From: an uncultured Flavobacteriaceae bacterium
Lineage (GTDB): Bacteria; Bacteroidota; Bacteroidia; Flavobacteriales; Flavobacteriaceae
Length of the DNA stretch: 64,000 nt
Assembly (NCBI GenBank): GCA_938029725.1
Contig: CALHGE010000045.1
Location: 1-64,000, forward strand
Direction: 5' to 3'
Part shown: in pieces, positions 731-58,531 of the stretch
Layout of the letters: every line of letters starts with the position of its first letter
Numbering within the stretch: the first letter of the stretch is position 1
Notes under the pieces: generated by a model
Told to the model about the DNA's origin: nothing
The model's input: the letters and a program-made list of their open reading frames with translations, nothing else
The model's database searches: none
Made by a program: the position numbers and the translations under genes

Positions 731-763
731 CCATGCGCAGTTAAGTTAGGGTAAGATTTGGGA
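731..763 (+). other. degenerate relative of the tandem small RNA core
   Basis: This plus-strand stretch starts with CCAT and carries GTTAAGTT (740-747) and GTAAGATTTGGG (751-762), separated by AGG. The minus-strand small RNAs at 14977-15707 have the same two blocks separated by CATG. No TAnnTTTG box sits 5 nt upstream and no terminator hairpin follows, so it is probably a relic or a shared binding sequence, not an active gene. Confidence 0.45.
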
Positions 764-771
764 TGATTCTA

Positions 772-2037
772 CTAAGCAACAATGCGTTCGTTGGCTTCAT
801 CTAAAGTAGAGTTATCAAAACGTTTCAAGTAAATTTCAGTAGTTTTTAAGGAACTATGCCCCAAACCTTCACTTATTATTGCCGTCGATATTCCCATAAA
901 CTTAGCAATTGTCGCCCAAGAATGACGAATAGAATAGGTTGTAAAGTGCTGTTTAATTCCTGCGTCTAGCGCGATAATTTTTAGTCTTTCGTTTACCCTT
1001 CTTCTTATAGTTTTATACTTCTCATATTTAGCTGTACTGCCATCGTAATTTGCAGGGAATAGAAAATCTTCTTCTGATTTATCTATTAAATAATGAGTTA
1101 AAATTTCTTTTAGCTCGGAAGTGAGTTTTACTGATAATGGGTCACCAGTTTTACTTCTTCCATAAAATATTCTATCCTGACGCACATTAGATTTTTTAAG
1201 CTTTACCAAGTCTATCAAATTCATTCCTCTACAATTAAACATTATTAGCGCATAGTTTTTAGTATGCCACAGCGCAGAACTCTTATCATATTTTAATTTG
1301 CGAATGTTCAGGAAGTCCTCTTTAGAAATCGCTCTTTTTTTGGTTTGATTTGAAGAAGGAATCTTGTAGCGGTGGAAGGGATTCTTAGCTACTTCAATTC
1401 TATCTTCATTTATAGCTGCGTTATATATTGCTCTGATAGCTCTTAGAACTGAACTTATGCTATTTGGTTTTAGACCTTTTGATTCTTTTTCTATTTGAAA
1501 ATCTTTGAGCATACTTACATTTAATTGGTCCAATCTTAAATCTTGATTGTTATTGAATTTTATAAAAGCTTTTATCCCATTGAGATACCATTCGGCTGAG
1601 CTTGGTTTGTTTGTTTTTAGTTTTCTGTCAACAATGACTTGACCCCAAACTTTTAGAGTTAATCCGTTTGACAGTTTACCTTTGAGCGATGGGCTTATCT
1701 GTTCCTCCCATTTATCTTTGATTTCTGTTACTAGAGTATCGATGTCAATATATTGTATAGAATCTCCAAGTTCATTTATCAAGCTTCGCGCAACATGAAG
1801 TTTGTCGTATAGAATTTGGTTGACTTTAGAACAGTCAATACTTTTATTTACAAGAACAGAACGTTTCAGACAGAATGAATTTACGTCCCATCCATTTTTT
1901 GAAGTTTCATAAGGCAATCGAATAATTCTTGGCTTAATATGGAAGACGCGTAAAGCAATCGGATACAATTCGGAAATTGCATTTTTCGATGATTTTCGAG
2001 TATCTAATATGAGTCTAACTTTAGCCATTTTTACCAC
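772..2037 (-). CDS. tyrosine recombinase/phage integrase, Bacteroidetes type
   Basis: A 421-residue site-specific recombinase. Residues 1-105 resemble the arm-binding domain of Bacteroidetes integrases, residues 120-215 the SAM-like core-binding domain, and the C-terminal 190 residues the catalytic domain. The catalytic residues are visible: Arg in NCRGMNLIDL, the Arg-His of TYSIRHSWAT, His in LGHSS and the nucleophile Tyr in TEIYLKRF. The protein would integrate and excise a mobile element. Its start is about 165 bp from a 3' tRNA fragment at 2201-2245, the usual arrangement of an integrase beside its att site. The length is normal and the gene looks intact. Confidence 0.93.
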   Translation of the reverse strand: MVKMAKVRLILDTRKSSKNAISELYPIALRVFHIKPRIIRLPYETSKNGWDVNSFCLKRSVLVNKSIDCSKVNQILYDKLHVARSLINELGDSIQYIDIDTLVTEIKDKWEEQISPSLKGKLSNGLTLKVWGQVIVDRKLKTNKPSSAEWYLNGIKAFIKFNNNQDLRLDQLNVSMLKDFQIEKESKGLKPNSISSVLRAIRAIYNAAINEDRIEVAKNPFHRYKIPSSNQTKKRAISKEDFLNIRKLKYDKSSALWHTKNYALIMFNCRGMNLIDLVKLKKSNVRQDRIFYGRSKTGDPLSVKLTSELKEILTHYLIDKSEEDFLFPANYDGSTAKYEKYKTIRRRVNERLKIIALDAGIKQHFTTYSIRHSWATIAKFMGISTAIISEGLGHSSLKTTEIYLKRFDNSTLDEANERIVA

Positions 2038-14282: not shown

Positions 14283-14891
14283 ATGGCTTTTGAACTACCA
14301 AAATTATCTTATGCCTACGATGCATTAGAACCACATATTGATGCAAGAACTATGGAAATACACCATACCAAGCATCACAACGGATACACTTCTAAATTAA
14401 ATGCAGCGATAGAAGGAACTGATTTAGCAGGAAAATCGATAGAAGATATTTTATCGAATTTAGATATGTCAAACGGAGCAGTTAGAAATAACGGAGGGGG
14501 CTTTTTCAATCACTCTTTATTCTGGAGTGTTATGTCACCCGATGGAGGAGGTTCTCCTTCAGGAGAATTAGCTGAGGCTATAAATGGCGCTTTTGGTTCG
14601 TTTGAAGAATTTAAAAGTAAGTTCAGTGCTGCTGCTGGAACTAGGTTTGGTTCAGGTTGGGCTTGGCTGTGTGTTCACCCAGGAGGTAAGGTAGAAGTTT
14701 GTTCTTCGCCAAATCAAGATAATTCTTTGATGCCCGGTGTTGGATGTGGTGGCCGCCCTATTTTAGGCTTAGATGTTTGGGAGCATGCATACTATCTTAA
14801 TTATCAAAATAGACGGCCTGATTATGTAGCTGCGTTTTTCAATGTTATCAATTGGGACAAGGTTTCTGAATTGTACGCTGCACACAAATAA
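14283..14891 (+). CDS. sodA: superoxide dismutase, Mn-type signature
   Basis: A 202-residue Fe/Mn superoxide dismutase that converts superoxide to peroxide and oxygen. Metal ligands are His27 ([11 protein letters not shown]), the His of [11 protein letters not shown], and the Asp and His of LDVWEHAYY. The residues that separate the two metal classes point to manganese: Gly-Gly before the second ligand where Fe enzymes have Ala-Ala-Gln, and Gln in SPNQDNSL where Fe enzymes have Ala. Cambialistic use cannot be excluded. It has no signal peptide, so it is cytoplasmic. It has its own -7 box and a strong terminator at 14921-14957, so it is monocistronic. Confidence 0.93.
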
Positions 14892-14920
14892 GACGTTTTA
14901 ATTACCGGTTAAATAAGAAA

Positions 14921-14957
14921 AATCCCTTCTCTGAAATTTCAGAGAAGGGATTTTTTT
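14921..14957 (+). terminator. intrinsic terminator of sodA
   Basis: A 16-bp perfect stem, AATCCCTTCTCTGAAA and its complement, followed by seven T, 29 nt after the sodA stop. Confidence 0.88.
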
Positions 14958-14976
14958 AGGTCTTAATTAAAAATAG

Positions 14977-15046
14977 AAAAGGGCGGAGAAGTCTCCACCC
15001 TTTTCGTCCCAAATCTTACCATAAACTTAACCTACTTATGCTATGG
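14977..15046 (-). ncRNA. tandem small RNA copy 1
   Basis: Minus-strand small RNA candidate of about 70 nt. From 5' to 3' it has CCATAGCATAAGTAGG, then the conserved GTTAAGTT and GTAAGATTTGGG blocks, then a GGGTGGAG/CTCCGCCC hairpin (15000-14981) and a U-run. One base pair of this stem is U-G on the minus strand but would be C-A on the plus strand, which fixes the coding strand. A -7 box lies 5 nt before the predicted first base. Function unknown. This copy is the most diverged: TTATGG replaces TCATGG and GGGACG replaces GGGG. Confidence 0.72.
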
Positions 15047-15051
15047 CGAGA

Positions 15052-15059
15052 CTAAATTA
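15052..15059 (-). promoter_or_regulatory. -7 box of small RNA copy 1
   Basis: TAATTTAG on the minus strand, one mismatch to TAnnTTTG, 5 nt from the first conserved base. A T-rich tract lies about 17 nt further upstream. Confidence 0.5.
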
Positions 15060-15180
15060 ACGGTATTGGATTAAATAAAAAAGAATTTTCTCTGTTTTTT
15101 AAGAGCTTTGTTTTTGGTTAAAGTGTAAGAATTTACCTCAATGCGATGTGAGCCTTTATAAACACAGGGGGTTTCAAATA

Positions 15181-15249
15181 AAAAAGGCGGAGCATCGCTC
15201 CGCCTTTTTCCCCAAATCTTACCATGAACTTAACCTACTTATGCTATGG
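15181..15249 (-). ncRNA. tandem small RNA copy 2
   Basis: Minus-strand copy of the same about 70-nt unit. The 40-nt core from CCATAGC to TTTGGGG is identical to that of copy 3. The hairpin is GGCGGAGC-GAT-GCTCCGCC (15204-15186) followed by six U. It differs from copy 3 only in the loop, and from copy 4 by paired changes in the stem. Confidence 0.75.
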
Positions 15250-15254
15250 TCCTT

Positions 15255-15262
15255 CAAAAATA
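15255..15262 (-). promoter_or_regulatory. -7 box of small RNA copy 2
   Basis: TATTTTTG on the minus strand, a full match to TAnnTTTG, 5 nt from the first conserved base. TTTTC lies 20 nt upstream (15287-15283) as a possible -33 element. Confidence 0.62.
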
Positions 15263-15390
15263 TAGCGATTCTATTACTCTTTGAAAATTTTTAGATGAAA
15301 TTACAAGAACTTGCGTTGAAATGCATTTCGTCGATTAGCGGCCTGTAAATCGATGAAAAGGAGGTGTGGGTTTCATGAATTTTCGCAAAT

Positions 15391-15458
15391 AAAAAGGCGG
15401 AGCATTGCTCCGCCTTTTCCCCAAATCTTACCATGAACTTAACCTACTTATGCTATGG
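15391..15458 (-). ncRNA. tandem small RNA copy 3
   Basis: Minus-strand copy with the same 40-nt core as copy 2, then hairpin GGCGGAGC-AAT-GCTCCGCC (15414-15396) and five U. The core contains a short possible pairing of its first four bases CCAT with ATGG further on, kept in all four copies, which leaves AAGTAGGTTAAGTT as an exposed loop, a plausible target-pairing region. Confidence 0.76.
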
Positions 15459-15463
15459 TTCTT

Positions 15464-15495
15464 CAAAAGTAAAGTAGACCCGTCAGTAGCGAAAA
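15464..15495 (-). promoter_or_regulatory. promoter of small RNA copy 3
   Basis: TACTTTTG (15471-15464), a full TAnnTTTG match 5 nt from the conserved first base, with TTTTC (15495-15491) exactly 19 nt upstream. The upstream DNA is clearly related to that of copy 4. Confidence 0.65.
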
Positions 15496-15634
15496 CTTCT
15501 TTGTTGAAGTTCATATATTTCGGATGAAGTGTGATTTTATAACTTGTATAGCAGGTTTGATAAATCAAGATTTTGAAGACAACTAAGGTGACAGAAGCTG
15601 CAGTGAGTAGGTGGTTTATAAAATCTTTTAAAAT

Positions 15635-15707
15635 AAAAAAGGTGGAGAAAAATCTCCACCTTTTTTGCCCCAAATCTTACCATGAACTTAACCTACTTAT
15701 GTTATGG
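15635..15707 (-). ncRNA. tandem small RNA copy 4
   Basis: Minus-strand copy nearest purF. The core differs from copies 2 and 3 by one base (CCATAAC for CCATAGC). The stem is GGTGGAGA/TCTCCACC (15660-15641) with a TTTT loop and six U. Compared with GGCGGAGC/GCTCCGCC in copies 2 and 3, two stem positions changed on both sides, so base pairing was kept while sequence drifted. Confidence 0.75.
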
Positions 15708-15712
15708 CAAAT

Positions 15713-15748
15713 CTAAAATAGACGAGTCAGTACCATAGCGACCAAAAA
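15713..15748 (-). promoter_or_regulatory. promoter of small RNA copy 4
   Basis: TATTTTAG (15720-15713), one mismatch to TAnnTTTG, 5 nt from the conserved first base, with TTTTTG (15748-15743) 22 nt upstream. Confidence 0.5.
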
Positions 15749-15762
15749 GACGCTGAATAACG

Positions 15763-15810
15763 AAAATTATCGACGAAATGCATAAATTTATGTATTTCGT
15801 CGATAATTTT
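15763..15810 (-). terminator. 48-bp palindromic terminator of purF
   Basis: Two 24-nt arms (15763-15786 and 15787-15810) form a palindrome with one mismatch, directly abutting the purF stop codon. The arms end in TTTT. Pieces resembling one arm recur at 15321-15335 and near 15511-15523 inside the small RNA array. Confidence 0.7.
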
Positions 15811-17709
15811 TTAATAGGCACGTTCGTTTTTGCCCTCATAAAAGTTAATGAATGCACGATTTACCACGCGATTACCGCCAGCCGTTGGGTAGTCTCCAGT
15901 AAAATACCAATCCCCTAAGTTCTTAGGGCAAGCTTGGTGCAGGTTCTCAATACTTTGATAAATTATTTCAACTTCCGCTTTGATGTCTTTGGAGCTTAAT
16001 AATTCTCCGGTCTTCTCTGATATTTCATCTGGAGTAAAAGGAGCATAGAACTCCTTCACATAATTAATAACATCAGCATCTTTGCTATTGACCTGAGTAA
16101 GACATTTTTTGTATATGGCTTCAACAAGATGCATCGTGTCTTTGTCTTTATGTAATGCCAATGCTGCTCTAAAAGCAATAAAATCTTCTAGTTTTGCCAT
16201 ATCAATACCATAACAATCAGGGTATCGAATTTGCGGGGCAGAAGAGACTACGATTATTTTCTTGGGAGATAAACGATCTAGAATGCGCAGAATACTTTTC
16301 TTAAGCGTAGTACCTCTAACGATACTATCATCAATAATCACCAAGTTGTCACCCTTGTCAACAGAACCGTAAGAGATGTCGTAAACATGTGCTACCAGAT
16401 CGTCACGACTGCTATCTTGCGTTATAAAAGTTCTCAGTTTTGCATCCTTAATAGCCACTTTTTCTATTCTTGGTCTGACGTCCAAGATCTCATGAAGTTC
16501 TTCGCTTGTAATTTTAGACCCAATAGAAAGAATTTGTTCTTCCTTTTTCTTATTCAAATAGTTCTGCGCCTCCTTCACCATTCCAAAGAAAGAAGTCTCT
16601 GCAGTATTAGGAATATATGAGAATACAGTCTTCTTGATATTATAATCAATTGCCGTCAAAATCTTAGGAAATATTAGTCTCCCTAATTCTTTACGCTCTT
16701 GATAAATTTCTTTATCGCTTCCGCGAGAAAAATAAATACGTTCAAATGAACATGCTTTTCTTTCGGTAGGTTCAAGAACTTGTTTTAAAGCAGTACTGCC
16801 GTCTTTTTTGATAATGAACGCATGACCAGGATCTAGTTCATGGACATCGTCATAGGAAACATTAAAAACCGTCTGAATTGCGGGTCTTTCAGATGCAACC
16901 ACCGCCACTTCATCATCTTGGTAGTAATATGCTGGGCGAATACCTGCTGGGTCTCTTAATACGAAGGCATCTCCATGGCCTAATAAACCTGCCATTGCAT
17001 ATCCGCCATCAAAATTTTTGGCAGCCCTTCGTAGTATTTTTGCGACCTTAAGGCGTTCTGCAATCAAGGGAGACGCTTCCTGTTTGCTATAGCCCTCTTT
17101 TTTAATCTGTTTGTATAATTTGGCAACAGCATCATCTAAAAAATGACCAATTTTTTCCATGACAGTAACCGTATCGGCCATTTCTTTTGGGTGTTGACCC
17201 AATTGCACCAAATTGTCGAAAAGTTCATTTACGTTAGTCATGTTAAAGTTGCCTGCCATGACTAGGTTTCTGTGCATCCAATTGTTTTGCCGGATGAACG
17301 GATGTACACTTTCAATACTGTTCTTTCCAAAAGTGCCATAGCGAACATGCCCTAATAATAATTCCCCAATGTATGGAATATGTTTTTTCTGAAGTGCAAC
17401 ATCATCTGCATACTCAGGGTTTTGTTCCATTGAAGTATTAATGCGATCATTGATTTGAGCGAAAATATCTTGAATGGGTTGCTTTTCACTTGAGCGTACT
17501 CTGCTCATATATCTTTCACCAGCCTCCATGTCTAATTTGATGCTAGCAAAACCAGCGCCATCTTGACCACGATTGTGCTGCTTTTCCATCATTAAATACA
17601 TTTTGTTAACCCCGTAAAAGGCGGTACCATATTTTTCTTTGTAGTACTCAAGAGGTTTTAACAATCGTATTACCGATATGCCACATTCATGTTTAATTGC
17701 GTCGCTCAT
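15811..17709 (-). CDS. purF: amidophosphoribosyltransferase
   Basis: A 632-residue PurF, first enzyme of purine synthesis, which makes phosphoribosylamine from PRPP and glutamine. The N-terminal class II glutaminase would start at Cys9 after removal of a short propeptide (HECGISV), and QHNRGQDGAGFAS and LLGHVRYGTFG follow. The phosphoribosyltransferase site is NLVIIDDSIVRGTT at about residue 450. The protein is about 130 residues longer than enterobacterial PurF, as is usual for this longer Bacteroidota form. It has no gene overlap; a terminator separates it from the upstream PfkB kinase and a long palindrome follows its stop. Confidence 0.92.
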   Translation of the reverse strand: MSDAIKHECGISVIRLLKPLEYYKEKYGTAFYGVNKMYLMMEKQHNRGQDGAGFASIKLDMEAGERYMSRVRSSEKQPIQDIFAQINDRINTSMEQNPEYADDVALQKKHIPYIGELLLGHVRYGTFGKNSIESVHPFIRQNNWMHRNLVMAGNFNMTNVNELFDNLVQLGQHPKEMADTVTVMEKIGHFLDDAVAKLYKQIKKEGYSKQEASPLIAERLKVAKILRRAAKNFDGGYAMAGLLGHGDAFVLRDPAGIRPAYYYQDDEVAVVASERPAIQTVFNVSYDDVHELDPGHAFIIKKDGSTALKQVLEPTERKACSFERIYFSRGSDKEIYQERKELGRLIFPKILTAIDYNIKKTVFSYIPNTAETSFFGMVKEAQNYLNKKKEEQILSIGSKITSEELHEILDVRPRIEKVAIKDAKLRTFITQDSSRDDLVAHVYDISYGSVDKGDNLVIIDDSIVRGTTLKKSILRILDRLSPKKIIVVSSAPQIRYPDCYGIDMAKLEDFIAFRAALALHKDKDTMHLVEAIYKKCLTQVNSKDADVINYVKEFYAPFTPDEISEKTGELLSSKDIKAEVEIIYQSIENLHQACPKNLGDWYFTGDYPTAGGNRVVNRAFINFYEGKNERAY

Positions 17710-51951: not shown

Positions 51952-51994
51952 TAATCAAAATAGCTTCAGCAAGTAAACCTGAAAATATGACTAT

Positions 51995-52025
51995 AAAAAA
52001 GGTCCGCAATTGCGGACCTTTTTTT
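51995..52025. terminator. bidirectional terminator, desaturase/HhH genes
   Basis: Palindrome GGTCCGCAATTGCGGACC flanked by A6 and T7 between converging genes. Confidence 0.88.
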
Positions 52026-52042
52026 ACTTAAAAATTATGCTA

Positions 52043-57803: not shown

Positions 57804-58280
57804 CTATCTGAAGAATATCTGCGTAAAGTAGAACGTACCTGCGGCATTCATTTTGACGCTAACCGCAGTATGAGAAAAGTCTCCTTCCATTGTTTTTTTA
57901 TGGCTTGAGCTCTTTAACCAGCCTTGAAAGGCTTCAGCTGCGTTGCCGTAATCTTTAGCAACGTTTTCTGCTACAAATTCAGCACTTACACTTGAAGAGA
58001 TTTTAGAGGCTCTTGAGCTGAAATTATCGTGGTTTATGGCTCCTTTAGAGATCATGTAATTCGTATGCTGATTTGCATATGCATAAGCAACTTCGCTAAA
58101 CTCCAAAGCAGATTCACCTAATGAAATGCGATGTTCATTTACAACCGACAACAATTCTATTTCTACTTCTTTAGCGTTTTCAGCCTCAACAATACTTGTA
58201 TTTTCTAAAGACTCTTTGGTACAAGAGGACAAAGTACATACAAATAAAAAGAGGACAACGTAGTGCGTTCTCATTTTCAT
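57804..58280 (-). CDS. CAP-domain (SCP/PR1-like) lipoprotein
   Basis: A 158-residue protein with a lipobox LSSC (Cys20). Residues 35-158 form a CAP domain: LLSVVNEHRISLGESAL, NQHTNYMIS, and the putative His/Glu set in INHDNFSS with VAENVAK, ending in HKKTMEGDFSHTAVSVKM. These secreted proteins bind lipids or metals; the exact role is unknown. The gene stands alone. Confidence 0.85.
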   Translation of the reverse strand: MKMRTHYVVLFLFVCTLSSCTKESLENTSIVEAENAKEVEIELLSVVNEHRISLGESALEFSEVAYAYANQHTNYMISKGAINHDNFSSRASKISSSVSAEFVAENVAKDYGNAAEAFQGWLKSSSHKKTMEGDFSHTAVSVKMNAAGTFYFTQIFFR

Positions 58281-58531
58281 ACAACAGTTCTATTTGTAAG
58301 TAGGTGTTCTAAAAGTAAAGTAGGTAGGAGAGAAATGGGGTGTTCTCAAGTTCAAGAGCTAACAGGGGTTGTTAGCGTCTGTAATGATACGTAAAATAAG
58401 AACTTCATCTATGTATAAATCGATTTATTCGATGAATTACACTTTTTGTTAATAGTTCAAACCTTAGGACATTGACAGTGCTCGAATTCTAGTAACACAA
58501 AGTAATACAGTAACCTTCACTTTAATTTTAA

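Follow-up and report, generated by a model that had tools for sequence, protein, structure and literature searches.

We describe a family of tandemly repeated small RNAs (sRNAs) of about 75 nt that probably act in trans as antisense repressors of envelope-protein translation, and that were found only in Flavobacteriaceae in this analysis. Four copies lie in the stretch of DNA analysed here (64,000 nt, hereinafter the window), and the new result is a predicted regulon for them. A bipartite motif, CCCAAATCT-N-AACCTACTT, found before the start codons of genes for lipoproteins and secreted proteins, is complementary to two blocks of the conserved RNA core, which we call A (AAGUAGGUU) and B (AGAUUUGGG).

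The RNA gene array between purF and sod

The first-pass annotation had described four minus-strand copies at intervals of 203, 209 and 249 bp, each with a core, a hairpin and a U-run, and both coordinates and sequence bear this out. The units occupy positions 14967-15059, 15170-15262, 15379-15471 and 15628-15720 of the minus strand. Their upstream neighbor is purF (15811..17709, minus strand; an ORF with the best NCBIfam match to TIGR01134 purF at 130.5 bits, under the cut-off of 350), and their convergent downstream neighbor is a superoxide dismutase (SOD) gene of the Mn/Fe type (sod; 14283..14891, plus strand; an ORF with NCBIfam Mn and Fe SOD matches under the cut-offs). Near-perfect inverted repeats at 15763-15810 and 14918-14955 flank the array and are apparently the terminators of purF and the SOD gene. 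Each copy displays a TAnnTTTG-like box followed by a near-invariant core of 39-40 nt (CCATARCATAAGTAGGTTAAGTTYATGGTAAGATTTGGG on the minus strand), with a GC-rich hairpin and a U-run 3′ of it. With our RNA model, the core and terminator of copy 1 (14970..15046, of the sod-side subtype TTTATGG ... GGGACG) score 107.7 bits, this copy being itself part of the model, as compared to 83.8 bits for copy 2 (15176..15249), 77.8 bits for copy 3 (15386..15458) and 96.9 bits for copy 4 (15630..15707, of the purF-side subtype), all on the minus strand. A fifth copy, on contig 35 of the source genome, has an identical core and an unrelated stem sequence; this copy, the purF-sod synteny and the targets were absent from the earlier account.

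The −7 boxes of the four window copies, assigned by sequence and by family-wide box statistics, are TAATTTAG (15052..15059), TATTTTTG (15255..15262), TACTTTTG (15464..15471) and TATTTTAG (15713..15720), all on the minus strand. Each lies exactly 5 nt 5′ of the CC of the CCATA start, the first conserved base, so that the spacing originally claimed holds for all four. Among 346 scored copies from related loci, the distance is 5 nt in 273, 6-7 nt in 64 and 8 nt in two, with no box found in seven.

The window copies fold better than dinucleotide shuffles on the RNA strand (z of −3.8 to −4.9). As expected of a hairpin, the complementary strand also beats its shuffles (z of −4.1 to −6.7, with weaker energies), and hence folding alone cannot pick the strand. 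Over 344 copies the more stable hairpin falls on the RNA strand in 238, on its complement in 91, and the two are equal in 15. The stem has at least 11 pairs in 343 of the 344 scorable copies (349 in total), which comprise 214 distinct stem sequences. The compensatory stem changes noted at the outset are real: across 62 distinct copies with terminators of equal length, both partners have changed in nine of 13 stem pairs, and 99.4% of the cells pair. Four of five covariation measures exceed all of 500 shuffles, while for the fifth (further pair types) 23 of the 500 do as well, and slid controls fall well under the observed values. The U-G pair that was said to work on the minus strand only recurs as well, with U-G at one stem position in 21 of the 62 copies, where it pairs on the RNA strand alone. 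There is no conserved reading frame, again as claimed: beyond MVRFG, the peptide encoded from the core ATG is variable, and its frame is disrupted in a large lineage by a one-base deletion. A small protein starting at the core ATG is not supported on these grounds.

The copies fall into two types, a sod-side type with TTTATGG (82 copies) and one with TTCATGG (264 copies). An upstream element, AATACCAGTA, is conserved in 74 of the 82 TTTATGG copies, the subtype to which copy 1 belongs, and in none of the 264 TTCATGG copies. As it is restricted to the sod-side type, at least one copy seems to be under promoter control of its own, and the copies may respond to different signals. Thus, the proposal that the copies act redundantly or additively remains plausible but is incomplete. 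That each copy has its own promoter and terminator is supported, in the form of a promoter-like box and a terminator, by conservation, synteny and covariation. The same evidence supports a multicopy regulatory RNA family, with transcription being inferred in the absence of expression data.

Distribution, synteny and relation to known RNAs

A search with a 33-nt core pattern allowing at most three mismatches recovered 108 of 299 Flavobacteriaceae genomes, and the reversed pattern recovered none; among the matches listed, all but eight are without mismatch. The count of 108 is an underestimate because a large lineage with a one-base deletion (GGTAGATTT for GGTAAGATTT) escapes the pattern. In an order-wide sample of 296 genomes, the covariance model scored above 60 bits in 40 of 50 Flavobacteriaceae genomes (a hand count) and nowhere above 39.8 bits outside the family, both among the matches listed. 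Presence outside the family was rejected: nine of the weak places there (39.8 bits or less) were read and are all terminators without the core, and short core resemblances at two of them (L250 and L251) are taken as chance. An ordinary intergenic terminator in the window (51958-52032, plus strand) reaches 34.6 bits with the sRNA model and serves as a warning on its background. A diverged copy of 45 bits lies between purF and sod in one further Flavobacteriaceae genome (L256). Core-bearing genera among the matches listed are Pricia, Maribacter, Zobellia, Arenibacter, Flagellimonas, Allomuricauda, Robiginitalea, Cellulophaga, Eudoraea and Kordia, which identifies the host family as Flavobacteriaceae. 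By inference, the genus most heavily represented in the sample, labeled g127, is probably Flavobacterium.

The synteny anticipated as support for the array is widely conserved. In a sample of 199 loci with a copy, some overlapping and some cut short, 177 encode PurF upstream of the copy, on its strand, and 162 encode SOD downstream, on the opposite strand; both are present in 148, at least one in 191 and neither in eight, the last including the fifth copy of the source genome, fetched twice. In one genome (G057; locus L416, copies at 276 and 4692) two ORFs of 835 and 247 aa separate copy 1 from the other three, and thus the array can be split by insertion. The possibility that these units are a dispersed repeat or mobile element without RNA function can draw on a related fragment beside a phage-type integrase at the window edge. 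It is barely credible given PurF or SOD at 191 of the 199 loci, the near-universal retention of the promoter-like box and the terminator among the copies, the stem covariation and the zero count of the reversed-pattern control. A 20-base piece of the core had no exact match in viral contigs, which also counts against such an element, and phage carriage of the sRNA was rejected on this basis. We regard the RNA gene family and its conservation, both of which are computed, as near certain from sequence.

The fragment at the window edge, GTTAAGTTAGGGTAAGATTTGGG (740-762, plus strand), matches 21 core bases in two pieces and lies just past the stop codon of the integrase ORF (772-2037, minus strand; PF00589). 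It may represent an attachment site, in which case a mobile element would integrate at the sRNA gene, or else a pairing site in a 3′ UTR.

No Rfam family matched at its gathering score in the window or in locus L001, which supports the earlier suggestion that the RNA is possibly undescribed; matches under the gathering score were taken as chance. Literature searches by sequence or description yielded no entry naming the sRNA, with the sequence tables of the RNA papers on F. psychrophilum and F. columnare not covered; the occurrences of its sequence strings that were met concern animals, plants or fungi. Non-coding RNAs have been described in both species (PMC9723704 and PMC5395568, each available in part), and this sRNA may already have been seen as a transcript in those surveys. 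In particular, its F. psychrophilum version may be among the 85 new Rfp RNAs. The Rfp RNAs are non-coding RNAs from the same bacterial family, and, in the accessible part of PMC9723704, Rfp18 is genus-conserved and affects metalloprotease mRNAs. Some of the targets predicted below are likewise secreted enzymes. However, pairing is described there in the third stem-loop of Rfp18, whereas our sRNA has one stable hairpin.

The FopS and GibS RNAs of Bacteroides are comparable in architecture, being multicopy and short, with a Bacteroidota promoter, a conserved seed that is single-stranded at the 5′ end, and an intrinsic terminator after it. According to the portion of PMC11697453 available, FopS RNAs bind RbpB, a protein with an RRM domain, and act close to the start codon to repress SusC-type mRNAs. 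A further likeness is pairing in the start-codon region of mRNAs for envelope proteins, shown for FopS and predicted for the flavobacterial sRNA. As far as that text goes, the two differ in that B. thetaiotaomicron has 14 FopS RNAs targeting SusC-like genes, while the flavobacterial copies cluster at purF and have lipoproteins and secreted proteins as predicted targets; the cores are also different. Membership in FopS was rejected, with scores of 17.8, 16.9 and 18.1 bits with its Rfam model (RF04319, BTncRNA_FopS) against a gathering score of 56. None of 148 genomes of the phylum exceeded the cut-off with this model, and the control, Bacteroides ihuae, did. The order yielded a single match to it (L156, 43.9 bits), which, judged by eye, seems to be antisense to the start of an ordinary ORF, with a terminator next to it. 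The FopS R1 seed, compared as the model consensus and not as individual FopS genes, has UUCAUGGUA and AGAUUU in common with the window-type core, a score reached by 166 of 5000 shuffles, and is no closer to the g127-type core than shuffles are (2382 of 5000). The likeness of the cores is therefore not clearly beyond chance and a shared R1 seed is not supported. In shape, and probably in where it acts, the flavobacterial sRNA is FopS-like, but its membership in FopS is not established; it may rely on a different chaperone or do without one.

Hfq dependence, typical but not required of trans-acting sRNAs, finds no support here: the Pfam Hfq domain was found in none of 24 genomes searched (15 Flavobacteriaceae and nine of the order), including the source genome (assembly 92% complete). 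RRM_1 was found in three of the 24 (one of the 15 Flavobacteriaceae) and not in the source genome, to which the same completeness applies. Qrr of Vibrio depends on Hfq and in this differs from the flavobacterial sRNA, for which no Hfq was found in those 24 genomes. Qrr and LhrC of Listeria, both named in the part of PMC11697453 available, are alike in having several near-identical copies, a shared pairing region and dose effects; they act in other phyla.

Predicted pairing sites before lipoprotein and secreted-protein genes

In the source genome, 668 gene starts in about 0.98 Mb were scanned for complements of the core. Two genes carry both anti-core halves before the ATG, one encoding a 545-aa lipoprotein (CCCAAATCTaattgtatAACCTACTTaatcaATG) and the other a 147-aa protein (CCCAAATCaaaattAACCTACTTgaATG). 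The word CCTACTT occurs within 24 nt before three starts (permuted words: mean 0.42, with three of 137 reaching this count) and CCAAATC within 50 nt before nine (mean 2.0, reached by none of 139). General complementarity displays only a mild excess: 21 genes at or above the threshold are matched by one of 40 shuffled cores, a stricter threshold by ten of 40 and the top score by five of 40. The number of genes in this sample with any 7-9-mer of the anti-core was not raised. Three other kinds of target gained no support. For a long continuous antisense target, a 27-nt extended pattern was not enriched beyond the sRNA itself; for SusC genes as FopS-type targets, 12 large-ORF starts from SusC-model loci, a small sample, did no better (−13.5) than shuffled cores (−12.9, sd 0.85); and the neighboring genes (purF, sod, three more, and two next to the fifth copy) gave no signal.

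Two side observations concern individual genes. Around the start codon of a signal peptidase gene (L278, minus-strand ORF at 943 of that strand; PF10502), 14 continuous base pairs with the core are possible, and no other ungapped match in the source-genome sample is better. Further, ORFs that we take to be gldK, gldL and gldM, of type IX secretion (L268 and L269; source contig C5), each have a partial anti-core match before the start codon.

Across genomes, the pattern CCAAATC-N{2,11}-AACCTACTT, which excludes the sRNA itself, gave 71 matches in 249 genomes versus 13 when reversed (hand count). In nine of 30 loci fetched with it, the site is separated by 0-4 nt from the ATG of a downstream ORF which, judged by eye, encodes an exported protein or lipoprotein. 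The rest comprise six instances of a small-ORF locus, one variant sRNA, two unclear cases and 12 sites inside ORFs (ten antisense and two sense), these last being taken as recurrent coding sequence that forms part of the excess. A second pattern, AAATC-N{2,16}-ACCTACTT-N{0,6}-ATGAA, gave 66 matches in 299 genomes versus 14 reversed (hand count). In 24 of 30 such loci it starts an ORF of at least 40 codons (in one, L357, inside a longer open frame), and 19 of these 24 begin with a signal or lipoprotein peptide by eye, a type of start that the ATGAA requirement favors. The recurrent families are a CAP-domain lipoprotein, a small lipoprotein of the NC..PENNDP type and the 545-aa lipoprotein, along with a subtilase (PF00082) in one genome. 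The CAP-domain lipoprotein has the full bipartite motif before its ATG at seven loci of other genomes, all of which match PF00188 over the cut-off. Its counterpart in the window (57804..58280, minus strand; PF00188 at 49.8 bits), a predicted target, has the block-A site twice and no clear block B: by sequence match, ACCTACTT, complementary to block A, lies at 58298..58305, 25 to 18 nt before the start codon, and again at 58318..58325, both on the minus strand.

The orientation and placement of the sites bear on whether the motif is instead a double-stranded DNA operator for a transcription factor, lying in the sRNA genes and near lipoprotein promoters, with no RNA pairing involved. A DNA site does read the same as its complement, the target sites, being in short 5′ UTRs, are fairly near the probable promoter, and the sod-side copies have a separate conserved upstream element. 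Nevertheless, upstream of the 668 source-genome genes the words lean one way relative to their reverse complements (CCAAATC 9 versus 1, CCCAAAT 6 versus 3, CCTACTT 3 versus 0 and ACCTACT 3 versus 1), and the CCAAATC bias in particular argues against an operator, though some block-B words lack any bias (CAAATCT 5 versus 4). Moreover, the distance to the start codon stays within 0-4 nt in the nine sites noted above, although the two blocks are variably spaced, and the conserved core of the sRNA begins a fixed short distance 3′ of the −7 box. We hence consider an operator unlikely and the motif to be better read as a set of RNA pairing sites.

The 545-aa lipoprotein allowed an assessment free of selection by motif, as its orthologues were fetched by protein similarity search only and 80 nt upstream of 21 of them taken. 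The commonest 7-mers there are CCTACTT (13), ACCTACT (11), AACCTAC (10), ACCCAAA (9) and CCCAAAT (8), and all twelve commonest are pieces of, or overlap, the complements of blocks A and B. CCTACTT lies within 12 nt of the ATG in 13 of the 21 and CCCAAA within 80 nt upstream in 11. In cofolding with the window core, at most one of 200 shuffles does as well as the site in four of six cases (the 545-aa lipoprotein, lepB, L313 and L358). The other two, the window CAP gene and the gene for the 147-aa protein, are weak (eight and nine of 200 shuffles do as well), and the purF control gave no signal.

A natural change in the seed provides a further line of evidence. In genus g127, block A reads UAGUAGGUU in all 34 copies of 16 loci. 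A pattern permitting either A or T at the corresponding site position gave 57 matches in 299 genomes of this genus, versus 30 reversed (hand count), a weaker excess in which many of the T matches look like coding sequence. Full-complement sites read AACCTACTA in 16 cases and AACCTACTT in two. Put by base, the sites with AAATCT and AACCTACT (n = 18) have A in 16 and T in two, as against A in 16 and T in 23 of the other 39 matches (Fisher P 0.0012, with the caveat that related genomes are not independent events). Outside g127, the orthologues of the 545-aa lipoprotein have T in 13 and A in none, the A form having been searched nowhere else outside the genus. One form recurs in g127, namely AAATCTTAACCTACTA followed by ATGAA; in the three loci read, the gene that starts there encodes a large protein that looks secreted. 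Thus, the full-complement sites appear to follow the changed seed base.

This co-variation is pertinent to the idea that the sRNA mainly binds and sequesters a protein, in the manner of CsrB or 6S RNA, with the UTR matches being secondary. The conservation of the whole core, exceeding that of the two blocks, and the multiple tandem copies would both suit titration. Yet the UTRs carry the complement of the RNA rather than the same motif, which pairing explains and titration does not, and that complement changes along with the sRNA in one genus, making sequestration improbable as the main role. The matching UTR blocks and their conservation are computed. Judged from such comparisons alone, the sRNA has conserved complementarity to unlinked mRNAs, and its pairing with lipoprotein UTRs may be considered well supported, with pairing in the cell being inferred.

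Proposed mechanism and implications

In the mechanism we favor, each copy would be transcribed from its own Bacteroidota-type promoter and end at its intrinsic terminator, and the sRNA would keep a mostly single-stranded 5′ core of about 40 nt. Block A (AAGUAGGUU) is predicted to pair with AACCUACUU just before the start codon and block B (AGAUUUGGG) with CCCAAAUCU a few nucleotides upstream, in mRNAs that have short 5′ UTRs and encode secreted proteins, exported lipoproteins among them. Translation would most likely be blocked by covering of the initiation region. Having several copies with different promoters would raise the dose and allow different signals to reach a single regulon. That the sRNA represses its targets and that it serves envelope control are both inferences. 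The same pairing with the opposite sign, namely activation or stabilization of the lipoprotein mRNAs, seems rather unlikely, though not to be dismissed, as direction is not readable from sequence and loss of Rfp18 lowered two metalloprotease mRNAs in Flavobacterium psychrophilum (PMC9723704, in the part available). Against it, the sites overlap the start codon region or adjoin it, a position in which pairing ordinarily prevents initiation; FopS RNAs, which have a similar shape, are also repressors of translation (PMC11697453, within the accessible text).

Eight Flavobacteriaceae loci (L302, L317, L325, L330, L331, L318, L361 and L379) display imperfect anti-core repeats ahead of and inside a conserved ORF of about 41 aa (PNLPxPTxxEN...KKxFML), with three repeats counted in each of two of them; seven of the eight are downstream of a gene that is presumably scoB-like. 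The transcript with these repeats is a candidate RNA sponge or multi-site target. More tentatively, and short of what we would call likely, the repressor might be an apparently Hfq-free master envelope sRNA, with its bipartite seed kept constant in much of the family by a large co-evolving regulon of lipoproteins and secreted enzymes, and opposed in some genera by the scoB-linked sponge. On this view, an sRNA-target-sponge circuit would operate without Hfq and mostly without an RRM protein (found in none and one, respectively, of the 15 Flavobacteriaceae genomes searched).

Flavobacteriaceae are major degraders of polysaccharides and include fish pathogens. In the literature searched, a single sRNA of this family with tested targets was met, namely Rfp18 (PMC9723704, available in part). 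The present sRNA would add a family-wide one with a concrete, testable predicted regulon in bacteria where the searched genomes gave no Hfq. It also offers a natural test of sRNA-mRNA co-evolution, in that a seed base has changed in one genus and the full-complement sites appear to follow. If the proposed mechanism is right, it shows how an RNA core of some 40 nt can remain almost unchanged throughout a family even as the sequence of the terminator diverges.
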